Source of the DNA: Desulfobulbaceae bacterium
GTDB lineage: Bacteria; Desulfobacterota; Desulfobulbia; Desulfobulbales; SURF-16
Reading direction: 5' to 3'
Length of the DNA stretch: 64,000 nt
Assembly: GCA_024637145.1 (NCBI GenBank)
Contig: JAGXFQ010000007.1
Coordinates: 1 to 64,000 of the forward strand
In this document: one piece after another, positions 1,285 to 37,989 of the stretch
How the letters are laid out: every line of letters begins with the position of its first letter
Position numbering within the stretch: the stretch's first letter is position 1
The notes under the pieces: model-generated
Databases searched by the model: none
What the model saw: the letters and a program-made list of their open reading frames with translations, nothing else
Told to the model about the DNA's origin: nothing
Translations under genes and position numbers: made by a program

Positions 1285-2826
1285 TTATTCCTGGAAAATA
1301 TCGGCGTATATTTTTTCGAAATAGTCGGCTTCCTTGTCGGTCAGGGCCGCGAACTCCCGTTGCCGGGCTCGTCCGGACAACCGCCCGTTGTCTTGCCGCA
1401 GAAAGCGCAGAAGCAATTCAACGGTGCGGTCCGGCATGTCAATCAGGGCCTGGACGGATTCCCTGAACTGATCATGTCGGCGCAAGAATTGAGTCTCCTG
1501 CGGCAAGTCTTCCTCGATAGTCTTCCGGACACAATCGTAAAGAAATTCCGCGTGCGGGGTGGCATCGAAGAAGCGGTAAAAGTCGCCGGTATCGTTTAAG
1601 ACCTGCACATTGTAGCGTGGGGTCGGAGCCCATTCGATCAGCGGCAGCAGGCGCCGCGCATACTCTTCCAAAACCTGGCGGTAATCATCAAGTCGTTCCA
1701 GGATCGCCGAGGATATCGGAAACACCACCCCCGGCGGATTAAAACCGCGCTGGGCCAGAACGTGGTGGATCAGGTAACGATGAATTCTGCCGTTGCCGTC
1801 CTCAAAGGGATGGCTATAGACGAAACCAAAAGCCAATATCGCGGCGGCGATGACCGGGTCGAGCTGTTTGGCCGCCCCCTGATCAAAGGCGATCATGCCG
1901 TCGAGCAGCGAGGGCAGATCTTCCGGTCGGGCGCAGATGTGATCCGGCAGCGGCTGGTGGTTCTGCCGGTCATGTTCACCAATAAAACCGCCCTCCAAGC
2001 GGATTCCCAGTCTGACAAATCTGGCATCACCGATAACCAGCCGCTGCAGCCTGAGCATCTCCGCCAGGTCAAAGGGGCGGCGGCCGGCTTCGCCGATCGC
2101 TCTGCCCCAACGCTGAATACGGTCCTGGGGCGGGCGTTCACCTTCAATGGCATAACTGGATTTGGAGTCCTTGAGCAACAGGAAGGCGGCCGTTCTGGCC
2201 AGGAGATCACGCGGCACATCGGCTATGAAGGCGCGGGCGAGTTGCCGCAGGGAGAGGGCCATAGAGTGGTCCAGCGCTTCCGTGCGAAACACCAGCGGGC
2301 AGAATCCGGGGGTGCCGGGAAGATTGTTTTTCACCCGATGCCGCCGGGAATTTTCGCCGGCCACTGTGTATTGTTTTTTGGGATCGATAACAGGTACATA
2401 GCGTCCGCCCGTTGCGTCCGCCAGATCCAGGGTAAGGCCGGTGAGCCATTCGTAAAGAAACCAGGTGCGACGGCTGTAGATGCCGGTTGGAGCCGCCTGG
2501 ACCAGGGCCAGGATCGGATCGGGGCCGGTGGCCAGGAAGAGCCGTTTCAGGACGGCGAGGTCCACCCCCTCATACTTCAAGGCAAAGCCGAGATGGCCGG
2601 CAAGGCTCGGTTCGGGCGCGTGGCGCGGGGTCAGAATACGCCAACCGTCTTGTTCCACGATCCGATGGCGCTCGCCGGTGGCGTAAAGTGTCCGGGGCAA
2701 GGGCACCGCCAGTCCATAAGCATCGATTAAGGCACTGTATCCGGCGGTGGTGGCTTGCACTGGCAGACGATTTTCCCGATAAAGGGTACTTGGTCCTGAA
2801 AATGGTATCTTGGGCGGCTTATTCAT
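1285..2826 (-). CDS. Fic-domain protein (Fido superfamily, predicted AMPylase/NMPylase)
   Basis: Catalytic motif HPFEDGNGRIHR; N-terminal SYAIEG matches the class II inhibitory [S/T]xxxE[G/N] motif. Start moved to MNKPPKIPFSGPSTLYRENRLPVQ at 2826. Confidence 0.88.
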   Translation of the reverse strand: MNKPPKIPFSGPSTLYRENRLPVQATTAGYSALIDAYGLAVPLPRTLYATGERHRIVEQDGWRILTPRHAPEPSLAGHLGFALKYEGVDLAVLKRLFLATGPDPILALVQAAPTGIYSRRTWFLYEWLTGLTLDLADATGGRYVPVIDPKKQYTVAGENSRRHRVKNNLPGTPGFCPLVFRTEALDHSMALSLRQLARAFIADVPRDLLARTAAFLLLKDSKSSYAIEGERPPQDRIQRWGRAIGEAGRRPFDLAEMLRLQRLVIGDARFVRLGIRLEGGFIGEHDRQNHQPLPDHICARPEDLPSLLDGMIAFDQGAAKQLDPVIAAAILAFGFVYSHPFEDGNGRIHRYLIHHVLAQRGFNPPGVVFPISSAILERLDDYRQVLEEYARRLLPLIEWAPTPRYNVQVLNDTGDFYRFFDATPHAEFLYDCVRKTIEEDLPQETQFLRRHDQFRESVQALIDMPDRTVELLLRFLRQDNGRLSGRARQREFAALTDKEADYFEKIYADIFQE

Positions 2827-3012
2827 GAAAAACTTTTCCGTGGTGTGAAAACTGGCATTAAAAGCCTTTTTTTTGTGAATTTTGATTTTCAGTATAGCCG
2901 TGAACCGTACGGGGGGCAATCGATAACTCTGGTGACGCCGTTGTTTTCGCGATCAGGCGATATTGCCATGGACTATGGCAGTAATAAAACAAGGGTGAAA
3001 GGCCAAGGGACA

Positions 3013-23365: not shown

Positions 23366-23608
23366 TCAGGCACTAATTTCTGCCTGGGCCCCAGGGCAGT
23401 GCGGTTGCCAGGCCTCAGGGGGAGTGGCCTGGTCGCTCTCCGGCAGGGTGTCTATCACAATCTGGGCGGCGATCTCTCCTCCGCAACGGCCTCCCATGCC
23501 ATCGGCAATTGCCAGTAAGGCAGTGTTGGCTGAGAGGTTTCTGATCAGAAAACGATCTTCATTGTGCTCTCTCAGCAAGCCGGTATGACTCAGCCCCTAG
23601 GTCTCCAT
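23366..23608 (-). pseudogene. Remnant of PP2C-family Ser/Thr phosphatase (N-terminal fragment)
   Basis: Minus strand reads ATG GAG ACC TAG GGG CTG AGT CAT ACC GGC TTG CTG AGA GAG CAC AAT GAA GAT CGT... = MET*GLSHTGLLREHNEDRFLIRNLSANTALLAIADGMGGRCGGEIAAQIVIDTL; PP2C motifs HNEDRF and ADGMGG, early TAG, and no C-terminal half. Confidence 0.75.
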
Positions 23609-23647: not shown

Positions 23648-24889
23648 TCAGCGCTTTTTGCTTTGGCCGCTGGCGTAGGGCTGCAGTTCGAAATTCTTTT
23701 TATGGGGGTCTATCTGCAGATGATAATAGCGGTTTTGCGGCATATAGACGTAAGGGACCTCCTCTTTTTGCCGGAAAAGGAAATCAGAGAGGATCATGCG
23801 GTTGACGGCCCGGTGGCCGACAATCATGATGTTGTCGTCATAGTTGTTTAAGTAAAAGACCTTTTGCAGCCCGCGGTGGATGCGCTGTTCCATGGTTGCA
23901 TAGCCCTCGCCCTCCGGATAGGTGTAGCCGTATTTATCCTGTTTTCTGGCATCAGCCACCTCCGGCATGCGCGCCAGGATTTCCTGGTAGGTCATGCCAT
24001 CACAGATGCCGGCGTGGATCTCGTTGAATTCGGGCAGGGCGATAATGGAGCTGTGCTCCTGTTTCTCGGCAATGGGGGCGGCTGTCTGCAGGGTCCGCAG
24101 GTAGTTGCTGGTAAAGATAATGGGAATAGGGATGGTGCTGAAATGCTCGGCCAGGGCCCGGGCCTGGGCCAGACCTTTGGCCGTTAAGACCGAATCCCCG
24201 CCGATGCGGTCTTCCAGGTTGAAATAGGTTTCTCCGTGGCGCACCAGAAAGAGATTTTTGACGATGCGGGTGGTTATCAGGTCACGAATTCGGTCGTAAT
24301 AGGGTACCACGTCCGCTAATTTCTCCTGCAGGATGGAGCCGGTAAAGGAATCCACCACAATGCAGTTGCGCTCAGAGTGCAGCGGTTCATACATGGTTTC
24401 ATAAAAGGAAATGCGCTTGGCAAAGCTGTCGATGGCCTTTTGGGGGGAGAGATGGGCAAATTCTCTGAGGGAGGATTTGCGGACCAGATTGGCTTCCAGG
24501 GCCTCTTCGTCCGCGTTGCGGCACTCCAGGAAAAGAATGGGACGACCTGCCATGGTTTCCTCAATCATTTCACGGCGCTGCCTGGAGACATTACTGGCGT
24601 CGATGATGGCTATGTCCCCCTCCTCCTGCAGGAAAGATTGGGCCAGATCGAGGTTTATCCGGGCGCATTTTTCCCTGAAGGCGACCCCTTCCGGATTCTG
24701 GGGCGAGAAGAACTCCGGCGCGGAGCTGTTGCCCTGGGCAAGTTTGCGCCGCAGTTCGCCATTGTTGAAAACCCGCACCTTGAGCTCATCACGCTCCAGG
24801 GTGCGGGCTATCTTGCGGGCCATGGTGGATTTGCCGCGGGCAGGCAGCCCCACCAAGACGATCACTAATTTTGAATCCATAGGCCACAT
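23648..24889 (-). CDS. PFK-2/FBPase-2 (PFKFB)-like bifunctional protein
   Basis: N-terminal kinase: VGLPARGKSTMARKIARTL, FNNGELRR, FFSPQNPEG, IAIIDASNVSRQRREMI, KRISFYETMYEPL. C-terminal phosphatase: LFLVRHGETYFNLEDRIGGDSVLTAKG, LPEFNEIHAGICDGMTYQEI, RKQDKYGYTYPEGEGY. Confidence 0.9.
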   Translation of the reverse strand: MWPMDSKLVIVLVGLPARGKSTMARKIARTLERDELKVRVFNNGELRRKLAQGNSSAPEFFSPQNPEGVAFREKCARINLDLAQSFLQEEGDIAIIDASNVSRQRREMIEETMAGRPILFLECRNADEEALEANLVRKSSLREFAHLSPQKAIDSFAKRISFYETMYEPLHSERNCIVVDSFTGSILQEKLADVVPYYDRIRDLITTRIVKNLFLVRHGETYFNLEDRIGGDSVLTAKGLAQARALAEHFSTIPIPIIFTSNYLRTLQTAAPIAEKQEHSSIIALPEFNEIHAGICDGMTYQEILARMPEVADARKQDKYGYTYPEGEGYATMEQRIHRGLQKVFYLNNYDDNIMIVGHRAVNRMILSDFLFRQKEEVPYVYMPQNRYYHLQIDPHKKNFELQPYASGQSKKR

Positions 24890-25050
24890 CCTGCATTGAT
24901 TGCCTGAAATAAGGGGTGCCGATCTCTTTTAGTATTATAAAAGGGGAGGTGATTTGCCAGCTTTTGCTGAAAAATTATTTGGCAAGGCAGGTGATGCTGC
25001 TGATATGTCGAAGGCGCACGGCCTCGGCGATCAGGGCAGGGAAAAGATCT

Positions 25051-28243: not shown

Positions 28244-28692
28244 AAGAGCGGAAATCAAGGGGATCGGTCTGGCCCCTGGACCCGGGCGCCGGGTCAAAGA
28301 GATGGAAACCAGGGGCGCCACTTGCCGTCAAGACAGAGGCGCGCGCTCCTCTGTCGTTGCTCCTCTCAGCGCCAAAACATCTCCCGGCTCTGCCGCCATT
28401 TCCCTTAGAAGTTGTTTTCTGTCCCCACCTCCCCAGCCCGCGCAGGGCCATAGAGTTGCCCATCTCACTTTATGGTGGGTGGCGGCAGGCAATGAGATGG
28501 CCCTTGGTGGGTGGTTGGGGCGCCTCCCTTGGCAGGGATTGCAGGTTGACACTGCCGGTCGCGTACCATAAAAATAAGGGAGAGTTGTTTTTTTTTGGTC
28601 AATACCGTCTCCTGTTTCCCTGGTAGCTGACACCCTTGTCGGCAGGCGATGATCGTCTCCTCAACCTTTACGGCAACCAAGGAGGACGCAGA

Positions 28693-30708
28693 ATGAAGCA
28701 GAACCCTCATCCCACCCTGGCCCCCCCCGGTGCTGATCTCGGCCGTCGGGTCTGGATTAAAAATATCAGACCTGCGGTGGATAATGGCCGCTACCCCATC
28801 AAGCGGACACCGGGTGAGGAGGTGCGGGTGAGCGCCGATGTCTTTGCCGATGGCCACGACGTCCTGGCTGTCATGCTCCGTTACCGGCCCACTGCGGCCG
28901 AGAAATGGCGGGAGGTGCCCATGGCTTTTCTCGGCAATGACCGGTGGCGCGCCTCCTTCGCCATCACCAGCCTGGAACCTTACTGCTATTCGGTGATCGG
29001 CTGGGTGGATTTCTTTGCCACCTGGCAGCACGACTTACGGAAAAAAGCCGGCCTGGGCCAGGAGGTGGGCAGCGAACTGCTGGAAGGGGCGGCCATGGTG
29101 GCGCAGATTGCTGATCGTGCCGCTGACCAGGATCGGACCCTGCTTGTTGATCACGCCGCCCTTCTTGCTGATCAGCAGCAACCTGTTGCCCTCCGTATTG
29201 AAGCAGGTCTGGCCCCTGACCTGCAGAGCGTCATGGATCGCTATGCTGATCGTCAAGGGGCCACGGAGCATCCCGCCCTGGCCGTGGATGTGGACCCGAT
29301 ACATGCCCGGTTCAGCGCCTGGTACGAGCTCTTTCCCCGCTCCGCCACCACGGAACCCGGCAGGTCCGGCACCTTCCGGGATGCGGAGGGGCTTCTCCCT
29401 CATGTTGCCCGGATGGGATTTGACATCCTCTATCTGCCGCCCATCCATCCCATCGGCCGCACCCATCGCAAGGGCCAGAATAACAGCAGGGCAGCTGGTC
29501 CGGATGATCCGGGCAGTCCCTGGGCCATCGGCGCTGCAGAAGGGGGGCATGACTCCATTCATCCGGATCTGGGCACCCTGGAGGATTTCCATCATTTCGT
29601 GGAAGCGGCCCACACCCAGGGCCTGATGGTGGCCCTGGACATCGCCTTCCAGTGTTCCCCGGACCACCCCTGGGTGAAGGAGCATCCTGAATGGTTCCGG
29701 CATCGACCCGACGGCACCATCAAATACGCGGAAAATCCGCCCAAGAAATATGAGGATATCTATCCCCTTGATTTCGACTGCCAGGAGTGGCGGGAGCTCT
29801 GGCAGGCCCTGGCGGCTATCGTGCTTTTCTGGATGGATCAGGGCATCACCATCTTCCGGGTGGACAATCCCCATACCAAGCCCCTCCGCTTCTGGGCCTG
29901 GCTCATCGGCCGGATCAGGGCAGCCCGGCCCGAGGTGATTTTCCTGGCCGAGGCCTTTACCCGGCCCACGGTGATGTATACCCTGGCCAAGGTGGGCTTC
30001 AACCAGTCCTACACCTACTTCACCTGGCGCAATACCGGCCTCGAGATAAGCCAATACCTCTCCGAGCTTACCCGCAGCGAGGTGCGGGAGTTCTTCCGGC
30101 CCAACTTCTTTGTCAATACCCCGGACATTCTGCCCGAGTATCTCCAGTTCGGGGGGCGTCCCGCCTTTATTGTCCGGCTGGTCCTTGCCGCCACCTTGAG
30201 TTCCTGCTACGGGGTGTACAGCGGCTTTGAGCTTTGCGAGGCCGAGGCCTTGCCCGGCACCGAGGAGTACCGGGACTCGGAGAAATTCCAGATCCGCCGG
30301 CGGGAGTGGGATCGGCCCGGCAACCTCACCGAGCACATCAGGCTGGTGAACCGTATCCGGCGGGAGAACCCGGCCCTGGCCCATAATTTCCATCTGCGCT
30401 TCTATCCCGTGGACAATGAGCAGATCCTCTGCTACGGCAAGACCACCCCGGACAACAGCAATATCATCCTGGTGGCGGTGAACCTCGACCCCCACCATGC
30501 CCACCAGGGCTGGCTTGAGCTGCCGGTGGGGGAGTTCGGCATTGCTGAAAACGAAGTCTATCAGGTGCATGATCTGCTGGGCGCGGGGCGCTACCTCTGG
30601 CAGGGGCCCCGCAACTATCTGCGCCTCGACCCGGCCTCGTCGCCGGCCCAGATCTTCCTGGTGCGACGGCGGATACGCACGGAACAGGATTTTGATTATT
30701 TCATGTAA
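28693..30708 (+). CDS. glgE: Alpha-1,4-glucan:maltose-1-phosphate maltosyltransferase
   Basis: YPIKRTPGEEVRVSADVFADGHD, FSAWYELFPRSATTEPGRSGTFRDAEGLLPHVARMGFDILYLPPIHPIGRTHRKG, DNPHTKPLRFWAWLI, AEAFTRPTVMYTLAKVGFNQSYTYFTWR. Confidence 0.95.
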   Translation: MKQNPHPTLAPPGADLGRRVWIKNIRPAVDNGRYPIKRTPGEEVRVSADVFADGHDVLAVMLRYRPTAAEKWREVPMAFLGNDRWRASFAITSLEPYCYSVIGWVDFFATWQHDLRKKAGLGQEVGSELLEGAAMVAQIADRAADQDRTLLVDHAALLADQQQPVALRIEAGLAPDLQSVMDRYADRQGATEHPALAVDVDPIHARFSAWYELFPRSATTEPGRSGTFRDAEGLLPHVARMGFDILYLPPIHPIGRTHRKGQNNSRAAGPDDPGSPWAIGAAEGGHDSIHPDLGTLEDFHHFVEAAHTQGLMVALDIAFQCSPDHPWVKEHPEWFRHRPDGTIKYAENPPKKYEDIYPLDFDCQEWRELWQALAAIVLFWMDQGITIFRVDNPHTKPLRFWAWLIGRIRAARPEVIFLAEAFTRPTVMYTLAKVGFNQSYTYFTWRNTGLEISQYLSELTRSEVREFFRPNFFVNTPDILPEYLQFGGRPAFIVRLVLAATLSSCYGVYSGFELCEAEALPGTEEYRDSEKFQIRRREWDRPGNLTEHIRLVNRIRRENPALAHNFHLRFYPVDNEQILCYGKTTPDNSNIILVAVNLDPHHAHQGWLELPVGEFGIAENEVYQVHDLLGAGRYLWQGPRNYLRLDPASSPAQIFLVRRRIRTEQDFDYFM

Positions 30709-30783
30709 AATGCCGGGCCCAACCTGCCGGCCGATAGGCGGCGACAGCCTGAATAAGCCATTTCTGAGGGCACCAAAAAAAAT

Positions 30784-33700
30784 ATGGACGCGAAAAAACA
30801 GGCCCCACCTCTCTGGTACAAGGATGCCATTATCTATGAATTGCACGTCAAGGCCTTCTTCGACCAGAACGGCGACGGGCAGGGTGATTTCCGGGGGCTG
30901 ATCAGCAAGCTCGACTACATCCAGGCCCTGGGCGTCAATACCCTCTGGCTGCTGCCTTTTTATCCTTCACCAGGCCGGGACGACGGCTACGACATCTCCG
31001 ACTACCGGGGGGTGCACCCCGATTACGGTACCCTCCGTGATTTCCGCCACTTTGTGAAGGAGGCCCATGACCGGGGGTTGCGGATCATCACCGAGTTGGT
31101 GATCAACCACACCTCGGATCAGCATCCCTGGTTCCAGGCGGCCCGCCGGGCCAAGCCGGGCTCAGCCCGGCACCGCTACTATGTATGGAGCGCCACAGAT
31201 AACAAATTTCCGGAAACACGGATCATCTTCACCGATACCGAGACCTCCAACTGGGCATGGGACCCGGTGGCCGGGTCCTATTACTGGCACCGCTTCTTCT
31301 CCCATCAGCCGGACTTGAACCACAACAATCCCCAGGTGGTGAAGGCGGTCACCCGGGTGCTCAATTTCTGGTTTGACCTGGGGGTGGATGGTCTCAGGCT
31401 CGATGCCGTGCCTTACCTCTGTGTCCGGGAGGGCACCACCAACGAAAATCTGCCGGAGACCCACGCGGTGATCAAGGAGATACGGCGGCAGATGGACCGC
31501 AATTATAAGGACCGCATGCTGCTGGCCGAGGCCAACCAGTGGCCGCAGGATACAGCAGCCTATTTCGGGGAAGGGGACGAGTGCCACATGGCCTTTCATT
31601 TCCCGCTTATGCCCAGGATATACATGGCCGTGCGCAAAGAGGATCGCCGGCCCATCACTGAGATCCTGGAGTCTACCCCGGCTATTCCCGCCAACTGCCA
31701 GTGGGCCATTTTCCTGCGCAACCACGACGAGCTCACCCTGGAGATGGTCACGGATGAGGAGCGGGACTATATGTACCGCGAATACGCCCAGGATCCCCGT
31801 ATGCGTATGAACGTCGGCATCCGCCGCCGGCTGGCCCCTCTTCTCAACAACTCCCGGCGGCGCATGGAATTACTCAACAGCCTGCTCTTTTCCCTGCCCG
31901 GAACGCCGATCATCTATTACGGCGATGAGATCGGCATGGGGGACAACATCTTTCTCGGCGACCGCAACGGCGTGCGCACCCCCATGCAGTGGTGCGCCGA
32001 CCGCAATGCCGGCTTTTCCCAGGCCGACGCCGCCTGCCTCTATATGCCGGTCATCGTGGATCCGGTCTACGGCTATACGGCCATTAACGTGGAGGGCCAG
32101 GAGCGGGACCCCTCGTCGCTGCTCCATTTCATGAAACGGATGATAGCGCTGCGCCGCCAGCACAAGGCCTTTGGCCGGGGCAGCCTCGAATTCCTGCGGC
32201 CCGAGAACCGCAAGGTGCTGGTCTATCTGCGGCGCTATAAAACAGAGGTGATCATGGCCGTGGCCAATCTCTCCCGCTTTGTCCAGCCCCTTGAGCTCGA
32301 TCTCTCTGAATTCCGGGAATGGGTGCCGGTGGAGATGATCGGCCGCACCGAGTTTCCCACCATCGGCGATCTGCCCTATTTTCTCACCATCGGCCCCCAT
32401 TCCTTCTACTGGTTCCGGCTGGAACCGCCGGCCGAGGCCATTCATCTGGCTGCCACCCCGGCTGGTGTTGCCCCCCCTATTCCGGCCCTGGCCATTGAGG
32501 AGAACTGGAGCGGTGAGCTGGAAGGGGCCTTCCGCTATGCCCTGGAAAACGAGATCCTGGCTCCCTGGCTCCCTGGCCAGCGCTGGTTCCGGAGCAAATC
32601 CCGGACCATCACCGGGGTTGCGGTCCCTGACTGGAGCAAGATGGGGGGCGGCTTCTTCATCCTCTTTTTGAGGGTAAGTTTCAGCGAAGGTGACAAGGAG
32701 ACATATTGCCTGCCCCTCAAGGTGGTGACCGGCCCGGCTGCGGAGCGGCTGGCTGCCGAGGCCCCGGAAAGTGTCCTTGCCCTGTTCAAGACCCCCAAGG
32801 CGGACGGGCTCTTCCTGGATGGACTGACGGACCGGATTGCCTGTTGCGAACTCTTTGAGGCTATGGCGGACAGCCGTACCTTTTCTACCGTTGCCGGGGG
32901 CACCATCCAGGCCTTTGCCACCCATGCCTTTGAGCAGGCCCTGCCCGTGGAAAGCCCCTGCGGTCAGGTGCGCCGCCTGGGGGTTGAACAGAGCAACAGT
33001 TCCGTGGTCCTGGATGAGCGGGCCATTCTCAAGCTGTACCGGCGCCTTGAAGAGGGCACCAATCCCGATTTTGCCATCAGCCTGCAGCTCACCGATCATA
33101 CCGACTTCAGGGCCCTGGCGCCTGTGGCCGGCGGCATTCTCCTCAACTTCCAGGGTCAGACCTCGGCCCTGGCCATGCTCCAGCCGTACCTGGCCAGCGA
33201 CGGCGACGGCTGGGGCTATGCCCTGCAGTCGGTTCAGGACTTTCTGGAGCGCAGCCGGGATCTGCCCGCAGAAGAGCTCCGGCCCTTTGCCGGTCTGTCC
33301 CTTCTGGCGGCGGCAGCCGCCTATGGCGAAAGCAGCGGCTGTGCAGTCTTTGGCGAAGGGCTCACCACCTTTGAAAACCTGGGCAGGCGGACCGCCGAGT
33401 TTCATGTGGCCCTGGCCGGCTCCACCCGGCAAGCCGACTTCAGGCCGGAACCGCTGGCTGAGGCCTATCTGCAGGGCCTGGCTGATGTTTTCTCCCGGCA
33501 TGCCCGGCAGGCCCTGGAGCATCTCAACGCCAGGCTGCAGGAACTGCCCCCCGATATCCAGGTCCGGGCCAATCTGGCCCTTGCCCAGGGCGACCGGCTC
33601 ATCAATCGTTTTTATGACCTGGCCGCCATCAAAAGTCGGGCCACCCGCATCCGCTGCCATGGCGACTACCACCTGGGTCAGGTGCTGCGGCAGGGCACGG

Positions 33701-34119
33701 ACTGGATATTGCTCGATTTTGAAGGGGAACCTATGAGGAGCCTGGCTGCCCGCCAGGAGAAACAATCCCCCCTCAAAGACGTGGCCGGCATGCTCCGCTC
33801 CTTTGCCTATGCCGCCACCAGCACCCTTTTTTCCCGCCAGGAAATAGCCGCCCCGGAAGCGGCCTTGTTGGGGGAGAGGCTGCATGGCTGGGAGGAATGG
33901 GTCCGGGCCGCCTTCCTGCACGGCTACCTTGAGGGCGCCGAAGGGGCCTCCTTTATGCCTGGCAGGGAAAAGCACCTGGAACTGCTGCTTCACTCTTTTC
34001 TTCTGGATAAGGCCTTCTACGAAACCGAATATGAACTGAACAACCGGCCCGACTGGCTGCGCATCCCCCTGGAGGGGATCCTGGCCTTTCTGCCGGGCAG
34101 TAAGGAGATATCGTTATGA
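30784..34119 (+). CDS. treS: Trehalose synthase - maltokinase fusion (TreS-Mak)
   Basis: N-terminal GH13: [66 protein letters not shown]-terminal maltokinase: [26 protein letters not shown] and [27 protein letters not shown]. Confidence 0.95.
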
Positions 34120-36020
34120 CCAAGACCTCTTTTCTCTCCGAATATGACCTGCACCTGCTGGGGGAGGGGGTGCACTACCGGGCCTGGGAAAAGCTTGGCG
34201 CCCATTCCGGTGAAGAGCAGGGCAAGCAGGGCTGCTGGTTTGCGGTGTGGGCGCCGGGCGCAGCCGCGGTATCCGTGGTGGGGGATTTCAATGAGTGGCA
34301 GGAAGGGGCGGCCATGCTGGAAAATTATCTCAGCAGCGGCTTCTGGGTGGGATTTGTGCCAGGGGCCGGTCATGGCCAGCTCTACAAATACGCCATTGAC
34401 TCCCGCTACGGCGAGTACCGGGTCCAGAAGGCCGATCCCTTCGGTTTTGCCGCTGAAATCACCCCCCAGACCGCTTCCCGGATCTGGAATCTGGAGGGCT
34501 ATGAGTGGGGAGATGGCGTCTGGATGGCGGAGCGTAAGGAGAAAAACGGTCTGGCTGCCCCCATCTCCATCTACGAGGTCCATCTGGGCTCCTGGATGCG
34601 GGGGGAGGGCAATTGCTGGCTCACCTACCGGCAACTGGCTGAAAAGCTGGCCGCCTATGTGGCGGAGATGGGGTTCACCCACGTGGAGTTCCTGCCCGTC
34701 ACCGAACACCCCTTTGACGGCTCCTGGGGCTATCAGCCGGTGGGTTATTTTGCCCCCACCAGCCGCTTCGGCACCCCCCACGACTTCATGTATCTGGTGG
34801 ATTCTCTGCACAGGCACGGTATCGGCGTTATCCTCGACTGGGTGCCTGCCCATTTTCCCCGGGACGAGCATGGCCTGGGCTATTTCGACGGCACCCATCT
34901 TTACGAGCACGCCGATCCCCGCCAGGGACTGCACCAGGACTGGGATACCGCCATCTTCAATTTCGGCCGGCGGGAGGTGGCCAATTTCCTCCTGGCCAAT
35001 GCCCTCTTCTGGCTGGAGGTCTACCATATCGATGGTCTCCGGATGGACGCGGTGGCCAGTATGCTCTACCTTGATTATTCCCGGCAGGAAGGCGAGTGGA
35101 TCCCCAATATCTACGGCGGCCGGGAGAATCTGGAGGCCATCGCCTTTGTTCGGCGCTGCAATGAGCTGGTCTATCAGGAACACCCGGATGTGCTCATGGC
35201 TGCCGAGGAATCCACGGACTGGCCCATGGTTTCCCGGCCCACCTATGTGGGAGGGCTCGGTTTCGGGCTCAAATGGAATATGGGCTGGATGCACGACATT
35301 CTCCTCTACATGAGCAAGGATCCCGTCCACCGCAAGTACCACCACAACCAGCTCACCTTCAGCCTGGTCTACGCCTTCCAGGAAAATTTTCTGCTGCCTC
35401 TTTCCCATGACGAGGTGGTGCACGGTAAGGGCTCGCTGCTGGATAAGATGCCGGGGGACCGCTGGCAGCGCTTTGCCAACCTCAGATTGCTGCTGGGATT
35501 CATGTTCACCCATCCCGGCAAGAAGCTCCTTTTCATGGGGGATGAATTCGGGCAATGGGCGGAGTGGAACCACGATGTCAGCCTGGACTGGCATCTCCTT
35601 ACGAATGCCGACCACCGCGGTCTGCAGCGCTGGGTGCGGGATCTCAATACCACCCTGCGGGGGGAACCTGCCCTGTATGAACTGGACTTCGAAGGTGCCG
35701 GCTTCTCCTGGCTGGATGCCAATGATTCCGAGGAGAGCGTCATCTCTTTTAGCCGCCATGGCCGCAACCAGAAAGACGTGGTGGTCTGTGCCTGCAACTT
35801 TACCCCTACTCCCCGCCACAACCACCGGCTGGGCGTACCCACCGGTGGTTTCTGGGCAGAGATCCTCAACAGTGATGCCCCCCTCTACGGCGGCTCCGGC
35901 CAGGGCAACCTCGGCGGGGTGGAGGCCACCCCGGTGGCGGCCTTTGGCCATTACCACTCCCTCATGGTGACCCTGCCGCCCATGGCCATGGTGGTTTTCC
36001 GGAGAAAGGCCGATGGTTGA
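34116..36020 (+). CDS. glgB: 1,4-alpha-glucan branching enzyme
   Basis: [77 protein letters not shown] overlap with the upstream gene. Confidence 0.96.
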
Positions 36021-37989
36021 ACCCGAAGAGGCGGCGGGCGGCCAGGCCCCGGAGGGCGATGACCCCAATCGCAGCGGCAAGCCGCCCGCCGCCATCCAGG
36101 AGGCCCTGCATCTCCTTGGTATCCGCCACCTCCTGCTGGGCATTCAGGATGCGGCCTTTCCCTGCTGGCCGGAGGAGGATATCGGCCGGGGCTCCCCCTA
36201 TAGTCAAGGATCCCGGGATTTTCTCGCCTTTATCCGTGGTCTGGGCTTTACCGGTGTGCAACTGGGTCCCCAGGGCATGACCTCGCCCAGCAACTCTTCG
36301 CCTTACGACGGCACCCTCTTTTCGCGCAACCGCCTTTCCCTGGCGCCCCTGCCCCTCACCACCGCGGCCTGGGGCACACTGCTGCGCCGGCAGACCCTGG
36401 CGGAGCTGGTGGCGGAGCGGCCCCAGGCCGCTCGGTTCCGGACGGTGCACGAGTATGCCTGCTATGCCCGGGGCCGGATTCTGGAGGAGGTATGGCCCGC
36501 GTTCCAGGCCGGTCAAGGGATGGGGGTGCTTGCTGATCTGGCCGGGGAATTTGCCCTTTTCCGCCGGGAAAATAATGGCTGGCTCAGGCGGGACGGTCTT
36601 TACGAGGCCCTGCGCCATCATTATGGCAACCGTAACTGGCAGGCCTGGGAGGGCAGCCCCCAGGCCGGGCTCGACCGCCATCTCTGGCAGGGGGGAAAGC
36701 AATGTGCCGCCAGACGGCGCACCTTGTTGAACCAATACAGTGAAGCCATTGCCGCCTATGCCTTTGCCCAGTTTCTGCTGGCTCGCCAGCACCGGCAGTT
36801 GCGGGGCTATGCCCACCGGTTGGGCCTCCAGCTCTTTGGTGATCTGCAGATAGGGTTTTCCGATCGTGATGGCTGGTTCGTGGAGTCCTTTCTGCTCACC
36901 GGCTATGTTATGGGCGCCCCCCCTAGCCGTACCAACCCGGCGGGTCAACCCTGGAACTATCCGGTGCTGGATCCAGATCGTTATTTCGTAGGCAGCAGTG
37001 ACCGCCCCGGTGCGGCCCTTTGTTTTCTGCGCCAACGACTGACAAAAATGCTCCGGGAGTTCGACGGCCTGCGCATTGATCATCCCCACGGTCTGATCTG
37101 CCCCTGGGTTTACCGGGCGGATCAGGAGGACTCCCTGGCCGCGGTGCAAGCCGGTGCGCGGCTCTTTGCCTCGCCGGACCTCCCTGACCACCCGGAACTT
37201 GCCGCCTTCGCCATCCCCCGTCCCGAGCAGATCAATCACCACCGGCCCCGCTATGCCGATGACTGGGTGCGGGATCTGGAGCCGGCCCAGGTGGAGCGCT
37301 ATGGCCTGCTCTTTGCCGTCATCATGCAGGCCACCCACGGCCAGGGCCAGGAATCTCAGGGCATTGCCTGTGAAATTCTTTCCACCCAGCCCTATCCGAT
37401 CCGGCGGGTCATGGAGCGCTATGGACTGGGCCGTTTCCGGGTCACCCAGAAGGCGGATCTGGATAATCCGGATGATGTCTACCGGAGCGAGAACGCCCGC
37501 CCTGAGGATTGGATCATGCTGGGCAACCATGACACCCCCTCCATCTGGTTCCTGGCCGAGCAATGGCGGGCCTCGGGTGCTGCCCGCCGCCAGGTCGACT
37601 ATCTGGCCTGGCGTCTGCGGCCTGAGGGTGCGGAAGGGGAGGGCTGGAGCGCCAAAGTGGCCGCCGACGTGGGTGAGCTGGTCCAGGCCAAGGCTGCTGA
37701 TCTCTTTGTCGGACCCGCCGGCAACGTCATGATCTTCTTCACCGACCTGCTGGGGATTCGGGATATCTACAACCGGCCGGGCTCGGTGAGTGACGACAAC
37801 TGGTCGCTGCGGATAACAGCTGATTTTGAGCGTGATTACCAGGAAAGGCTGGCCCGCAACCGGGCCATCAACATCCCCAGGGCCCTGGCCCGGGCCATCC
37901 GGGCCCGGGGCCTGGCCTTTTGCCAGGGGCACGGCCGCCTGCTTAGGGAACTGGATCTCCTGGCCGCCCAGAGCGCGTCGCCGGCCTGA
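36013..37989 (+). CDS. malQ: 4-alpha-glucanotransferase (MalQ-like)
   Basis: GH77-type patterns [102 protein letters not shown]; 8-nt overlap with glgB. Confidence 0.85.

Follow-up and report, generated by a model that had tools for sequence, protein, structure and literature searches.

A bacterial PFK-2/FBPase-2 homologue from Desulfobacterota and its probable role in fructose-2,6-bisphosphate turnover

Could a bacterium make and remove fructose-2,6-bisphosphate (F2,6BP) with an enzyme of the kind that animals use? F2,6BP is usually presented as a regulator found in eukaryotes. In animals, a two-headed enzyme both makes and destroys this sugar signal, which controls the burning of glucose, and bacterial homologues of the enzyme, PFK-2/FBPase-2, have been listed before. 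The question is raised here by a gene on the minus strand of the window, by which we mean the whole stretch of 64,000 nucleotides of Desulfobulbaceae DNA, from a bacterium of the sulfate-reducer type, that was analysed. A paper from 2022 (PMC9721465) states, with reference to Rider et al. 2004, that bacteria lack F2,6BP, Desulfovibrio desulfuricans being the exception. Our literature search found no paper characterising a bacterial PFK-2/FBPase-2 enzyme. Judging from the sequence, we consider it probable, at about 0.72, that the encoded enzyme makes and removes F2,6BP.

The original prediction placed the gene at 23648-24889. An uninterrupted open reading frame of 413 codons lies there on the minus strand (24889..23648); the plus strand of the same segment is interrupted by stops. 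Translation most probably begins at the second ATG (24880, Met4 of that frame), which gives a protein of 410 amino acids: this ATG is aligned across relatives and AGGA lies about 8 nt upstream of it. The start first proposed at 24889 would thus be three codons too long. An A(A)GGA just 5' of the ATG is kept in most of the aligned relatives. The features are as follows.

23648..24880, minus strand: PFK-2/FBPase-2 homologue, likely true open reading frame, 410 amino acids, stop included in the coordinates, starting at Met4 of the original frame
24889..24892, minus strand: AGGA, read from the sequence and a putative ribosome-binding site for the ATG at 24880
24365..24877, minus strand: 6PF2K kinase domain, residues 5-175 of the 413-residue frame (PF01591, 148 bits)
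23687..24253, minus strand: histidine-phosphatase (FBPase-2) domain, residues 213-401 (PF00300, 136 bits)

Compared with the nearest relative, the whole frame has a dN/dS ratio of about 0.14 (dN 0.094, dS 0.658), and the GC3 of the gene, 0.71, is similar to that of the neighbouring genes, which together indicate a native gene under constraint, neither a chance frame nor recent foreign DNA. A chance or frameshifted reading frame is ruled out by the uninterrupted frame, the Pfam domains and this ratio. Recent eukaryotic contamination or transfer is ruled out by the native GC3, the bacterial coding neighbours and the deep Desulfobacterota clade of homologues, which takes in the single-contig genomes G031, G112 and G310. 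Carriage by plasmids or phages was also rejected: no copy was found on plasmids, and the only phage resemblance is a partial match of 28.6% to the phosphatase only, in two Listeria phage records.

Both domains score far above their Pfam cut-offs (27 bits for 6PF2K and 21.7 bits for His_Phos_1), and they are joined in a single chain with the kinase N-terminal to the histidine phosphatase, which is the architecture of PFKFB. A phmmer search of the PDB aligned residues 8-387 to residues 39-418 of the rat PFKFB4 chain (3bif) with an E-value of 9.4e-59, followed by human PFKFB2/3 and liver PFKFB1 as the next-best matches. The kinase motifs GLPARGKS (Walker A), FNNGELRR, DASN and KRISFYE are present. 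The protein had been described as a full-length, motif-complete homologue, and the two Pfam domains, the end-to-end alignment to PFKFB4 and the recovery of every motif quoted bear this out; as far as sequence can tell, it is a PFK-2/FBPase-2 by architecture and active sites. Mammalian PFKFB1-4 (3bif, 2axn, 1k6m) share with it the domain order, the end-to-end alignment and the catalytic and F6P/F2,6BP-contacting residues. They differ in their long N- and C-terminal regulatory tails, which the window protein lacks, whereas the latter has several indels, a serine in place of T130 and an arginine in place of Q391, and is 34% (kinase) and 40% (phosphatase) identical to rat PFKFB4. The best NCBIfam match was CobC, at 92.6 bits well below the cut-off of 162.9, and an alpha-ribazole phosphatase equivalog was rejected on this score. 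The CobC/PhoE branch of histidine phosphatases has the same fold and catalytic core but no kinase domain, and FBPase-2 structures are nearer to the window protein by fold.

The proposed chemistry depends on whether the substrate-binding residues have been kept. We compared 65 bacterial homologues (51 of the Desulfobacterota type and 14 from Myxococcota), using the numbering of rat testis PFKFB4 (RT2K) taken from the phmmer alignment, and considered the residues that contact F6P or F2,6BP in the rat and human structures. In the kinase, K51, R78, R79, R102, D128, R136, K172, R193 and Y197 are kept in the window protein and invariant in all 65 homologues; so are R255, H256, N262, G268, R305, E325, Y336, R350, K354, Y365, H390 and R395 in the phosphatase. 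The phosphatase therefore retains the R350/K354/Y365/R395 pocket besides the catalytic core of His256, Glu325 and His390. We take Arg350, Lys354, Tyr365 and Arg395 to form the 6-phosphate pocket of FBPase-2, Arg78, Arg102, Arg136, Arg193 and Tyr197 to bind F6P in the kinase, and Asp128 and Lys172 to be the catalytic residues of the latter. Only two of the substrate-contacting positions vary among the 65 homologues. T130, a catalytic-site threonine in mammals, is serine in the window protein and serine, threonine, glycine or alanine across the Desulfobacterota type; Q391 is arginine in the window protein and mostly arginine across the same type. The original prediction had proposed to check whether the F6P-binding residues are lost, and because the substrate residues are invariant save T130 and Q391, the pocket is found to be retained across the 65 homologues. 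With these sites, the N-terminal kinase would use ATP to phosphorylate fructose-6-phosphate at C2, giving F2,6BP, and the C-terminal histidine phosphatase would remove this phosphate via a phospho-histidine on the histidine of LVRHGE. The enzyme would thereby adjust the amount of the F2,6BP signal to the availability of F6P and other metabolites.

We built an AlphaFold2 model of the window protein (24889-23651, minus strand) with 23 bacterial sequences (pLDDT 89.9, pTM 0.86; the five models range from 79 to 90 in confidence). All the best Foldseek matches of the whole chain in the PDB were PFKFB structures (lowest E-value 8.5e-35). Taken by itself, the phosphatase half has its closest fold in rat liver FBPase-2 (1tip, TMt 0.89; 1fbt, TMt 0.91, r.m.s.d. 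1.9 Å). The whole predicted chain superposes poorly on PFKFB3, with a TM of 0.48 and an r.m.s.d. of 16-17 Å. Since the phosphatase domain fits and the alignment is full-length, yet the whole chain superposes poorly, the simplest reading of the model is that the two domains would pack differently from those of mammalian PFKFB. A control from Myxococcota (L022), modelled with the same 23 sequences, reached a whole-length TM of about 0.95 to PFKFB3 with an r.m.s.d. of 1.2-2.9 Å, although the mammalian structures were presumably in the AlphaFold2 training data and L022 is nearer to the mammalian enzymes.

The same divergent features could be read as signs of another substrate. A bifunctional kinase/phosphatase of the same mechanism might have a different sugar phosphate as its main substrate and accept F6P/F2,6BP on the side, in which case the fusion would control a different bisphosphate signal. 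The changes of T130 to serine, glycine or alanine and of Q391 to arginine in the clade of the window protein, its distinct indels and predicted domain packing, and its long branch apart from the mammalian clade all lean this way. However, all charged residues that hold the 6-phosphate and the C2 side in the mammalian enzymes are invariant at both sites in the 65 bacterial sequences, and a different substrate would hardly explain why the two domains have kept them together. We therefore regard a different main substrate as improbable; the retained pocket lessens, but does not remove, the earlier doubt whether F6P is the substrate. The reading that the enzyme makes and removes F2,6BP is supported by domains far above their cut-offs and collinear with PFKFB, by the invariant pockets, by the intact fusion, by the dN/dS of about 0.14 and by a genome that encodes both candidate target enzymes. 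It is weakened by the T130 and Q391 changes, the unlike predicted packing, a neighbourhood with no metabolic link and a patchy presence. We infer both catalytic activities and their substrate, and, most tentatively, the regulatory targets.

The window protein is not unique; by sequence comparison it belongs to a bacterial family that extends across Desulfobacterota and Myxococcota. A scan of GTDB contigs gave 25 loci, mostly from Desulfobulbales and other Desulfobacterota, with one from Brocadiaceae and three from Myxococcota that fall in a second clade, some of the metagenome-assembled genomes (MAGs) among them bearing older or coarse taxonomic labels. Among sampled genomes, matches were found in 47 of 297 Desulfobacterota (43 full-length and four phosphatase-only), and full-length homologues in 44 of 189 Myxococcota and 1 of 199 Planctomycetota, the last being the seed itself. 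The deltaproteobacterial homologues mentioned in the original prediction thus do exist. Homologues from Desulfobacterota, such as those of Desulfogranum japonicum (L009) and a Desulfocapsa MAG (L001), form an orthologous clade with the window gene at 45-84% identity and have the same pocket residues; they differ in that the neighbourhood is not common to them and T130 varies between S, T, G and A. The gene is patchy even among close relatives: of the 38 genomes related to the window, 12 carry it at full length and a further one, G021, carries it as two frames, while the genus-mates G001 (99% complete) and G003 (92%) have no full-length copy.

The fusion is intact in most homologues. The visible exception is the copy in G021:C124 (L011/L038/L044), which is split into frames of 108 and 317 codons by a frameshift or an assembly error. 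This copy in two frames, together with the loss of one activity in some protist PFK-2/FBPase-2 isoforms, would favour a degenerate or effectively monofunctional enzyme in which one domain dominates, for example a phosphatase-only one. The Walker A motif, D128, K172 and the His/Glu/His phosphatase core are nevertheless intact in the window protein and its relatives, and the dN/dS of 0.14 holds over the whole frame, which makes such degeneration very unlikely.

The phylogenetic tree falls into two clades: one of the Desulfobacterota type, whose 51 rows include the Brocadiaceae copy, and one that unites Myxococcota with the two mammalian enzymes. Long branches join them, about two changes per site to either side of the midpoint, and the SH-aLRT support is 100%. 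The eukaryotes in the tree are two mammalian sequences only, taken from the PDB alignments, and because of these two sequences and the very long branches we make no statement on the direction of transfer. The Myxococcota homologues (L022-L024, L117-L128) are bifunctional bacterial fusions with the same invariant pocket residues as the window protein. Unlike the latter, they group with the mammalian enzymes. Their identity to PFKFB4 is 43-44% in the kinase and 46-55% in the phosphatase, against only 31-40% to the window protein. By sequence, the eukaryote-like bacterial homologues are the Myxococcota ones, at 43-55% identity to PFKFB4, and not the window protein. The label "eukaryote-like" first given to the window protein fits its domain architecture and residues, whereas its place in a separate Desulfobacterota clade does not agree with it. 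This two-clade picture bears on the source of the eukaryotic enzyme.

What F2,6BP might act on in this bacterium is a separate question. Phosphofructokinase (PFK) and fructose-1,6-bisphosphatase (FBPase) are the opposing pair set by F2,6BP in eukaryotes, where the class I FBPase is a known F2,6BP-sensitive fold. The window comes from a Desulfobulbales-like MAG (G000). This genome encodes one PFK, at G000:C29:65010-65936, whose motifs GGDGS and PKTIDND make it ATP-type under the usual Gly/Asp-104 rule, and one class I FBPase, at G000:C33:7888-8454. With an assembly completeness of 86%, further copies of either could exist. These two enzymes would be the likeliest targets. The PFKs examined are of the GGDGS/T type in carriers and non-carriers of the gene alike, and a link to PPi-PFK was rejected on this ground. 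Class I FBPase was found in 12 of 13 carriers and 19 of 25 non-carriers, with no significant association (Fisher p = 0.38). Because the gene is patchy within the genus and does not follow the occurrence of class I FBPase, the enzyme would provide accessory control at most. Action of F2,6BP on the PFK/FBPase pair of the host is plausible; since genomes lacking the gene have the same PFK type, and since FBPase does not follow its distribution, this target is inferred only.

Alternatively, F2,6BP might be made and destroyed as proposed but act on another target, such as a transcription regulator, a kinase or an enzyme of glycogen metabolism. The chemistry would be that of the preferred reading, and only the target would differ. 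The identical PFK type in relatives with and without the gene and the lack of correlation with FBPase would agree with it, as would a row of glycogen genes in the window about 4 kb from the enzyme gene on the opposite strand. This row (28636-37989, plus strand) contains genes for GlgE, a TreS-maltokinase fusion, a branching-enzyme-like protein and a 4-alpha-glucanotransferase, and by its gene content is a GlgE-type glycogen pathway. Against another target stand the absence of the GlgE genes from most PFKFB-bearing relatives, the neighbourhood that is not conserved, and the class I FBPase as a known F2,6BP-sensitive fold in eukaryotes. We consider another target unlikely, though less so than another substrate. 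GlgE occurs in 6 of the 38 relatives, mostly not carriers of PFKFB, and a functional link to the nearby GlgE operon was rejected for this reason.

A wider proposal can be made in which Desulfobacterota and Myxococcota would run genuine second-messenger control of glycolysis and gluconeogenesis by F2,6BP, the Desulfobacterota enzyme would be structurally distinct with another domain arrangement, the Myxococcota version would stand closest to the eukaryotic enzyme among its known bacterial relatives, and the switch would be bacterial in origin. Taken together, we hold this proposal to be possible but rather doubtful; if it were true, a switch thought to be eukaryotic would have a bacterial origin. 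The use of F2,6BP by bacteria is directly testable, because two bacterial phyla have many apparently intact copies of the gene; the carriers include at least one that is in culture, Desulfogranum japonicum DSM 18378 (L009).

No neighbour of the window gene recurs beside the homologues at the 53 other loci examined, and a function based on an operon was rejected accordingly. An ABC-F ATPase gene lies upstream in the same orientation as the enzyme gene. Between the two, an inverted repeat TTGCCA...TGGCAA with a loop of about 20 nt is followed by TATAAT (24931-24990, minus strand); the repeat is not obviously conserved in relatives, and a scan for promoters and terminators gave matches at chance level. 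Directly downstream of the enzyme gene lies a truncated PP2C-like fragment (23369-23602, minus strand) that matches PF13672 weakly (21 bits; cut-off 24) and is interrupted by two stops, one in frame close to its start and the other after about 75 codons. From its sequence it looks like a decayed gene, and no counterpart was found beside other homologues. Elsewhere in the window, an open reading frame of 544 codons (1285-2919, minus strand) carries a Fic/DOC domain (57.6 bits).
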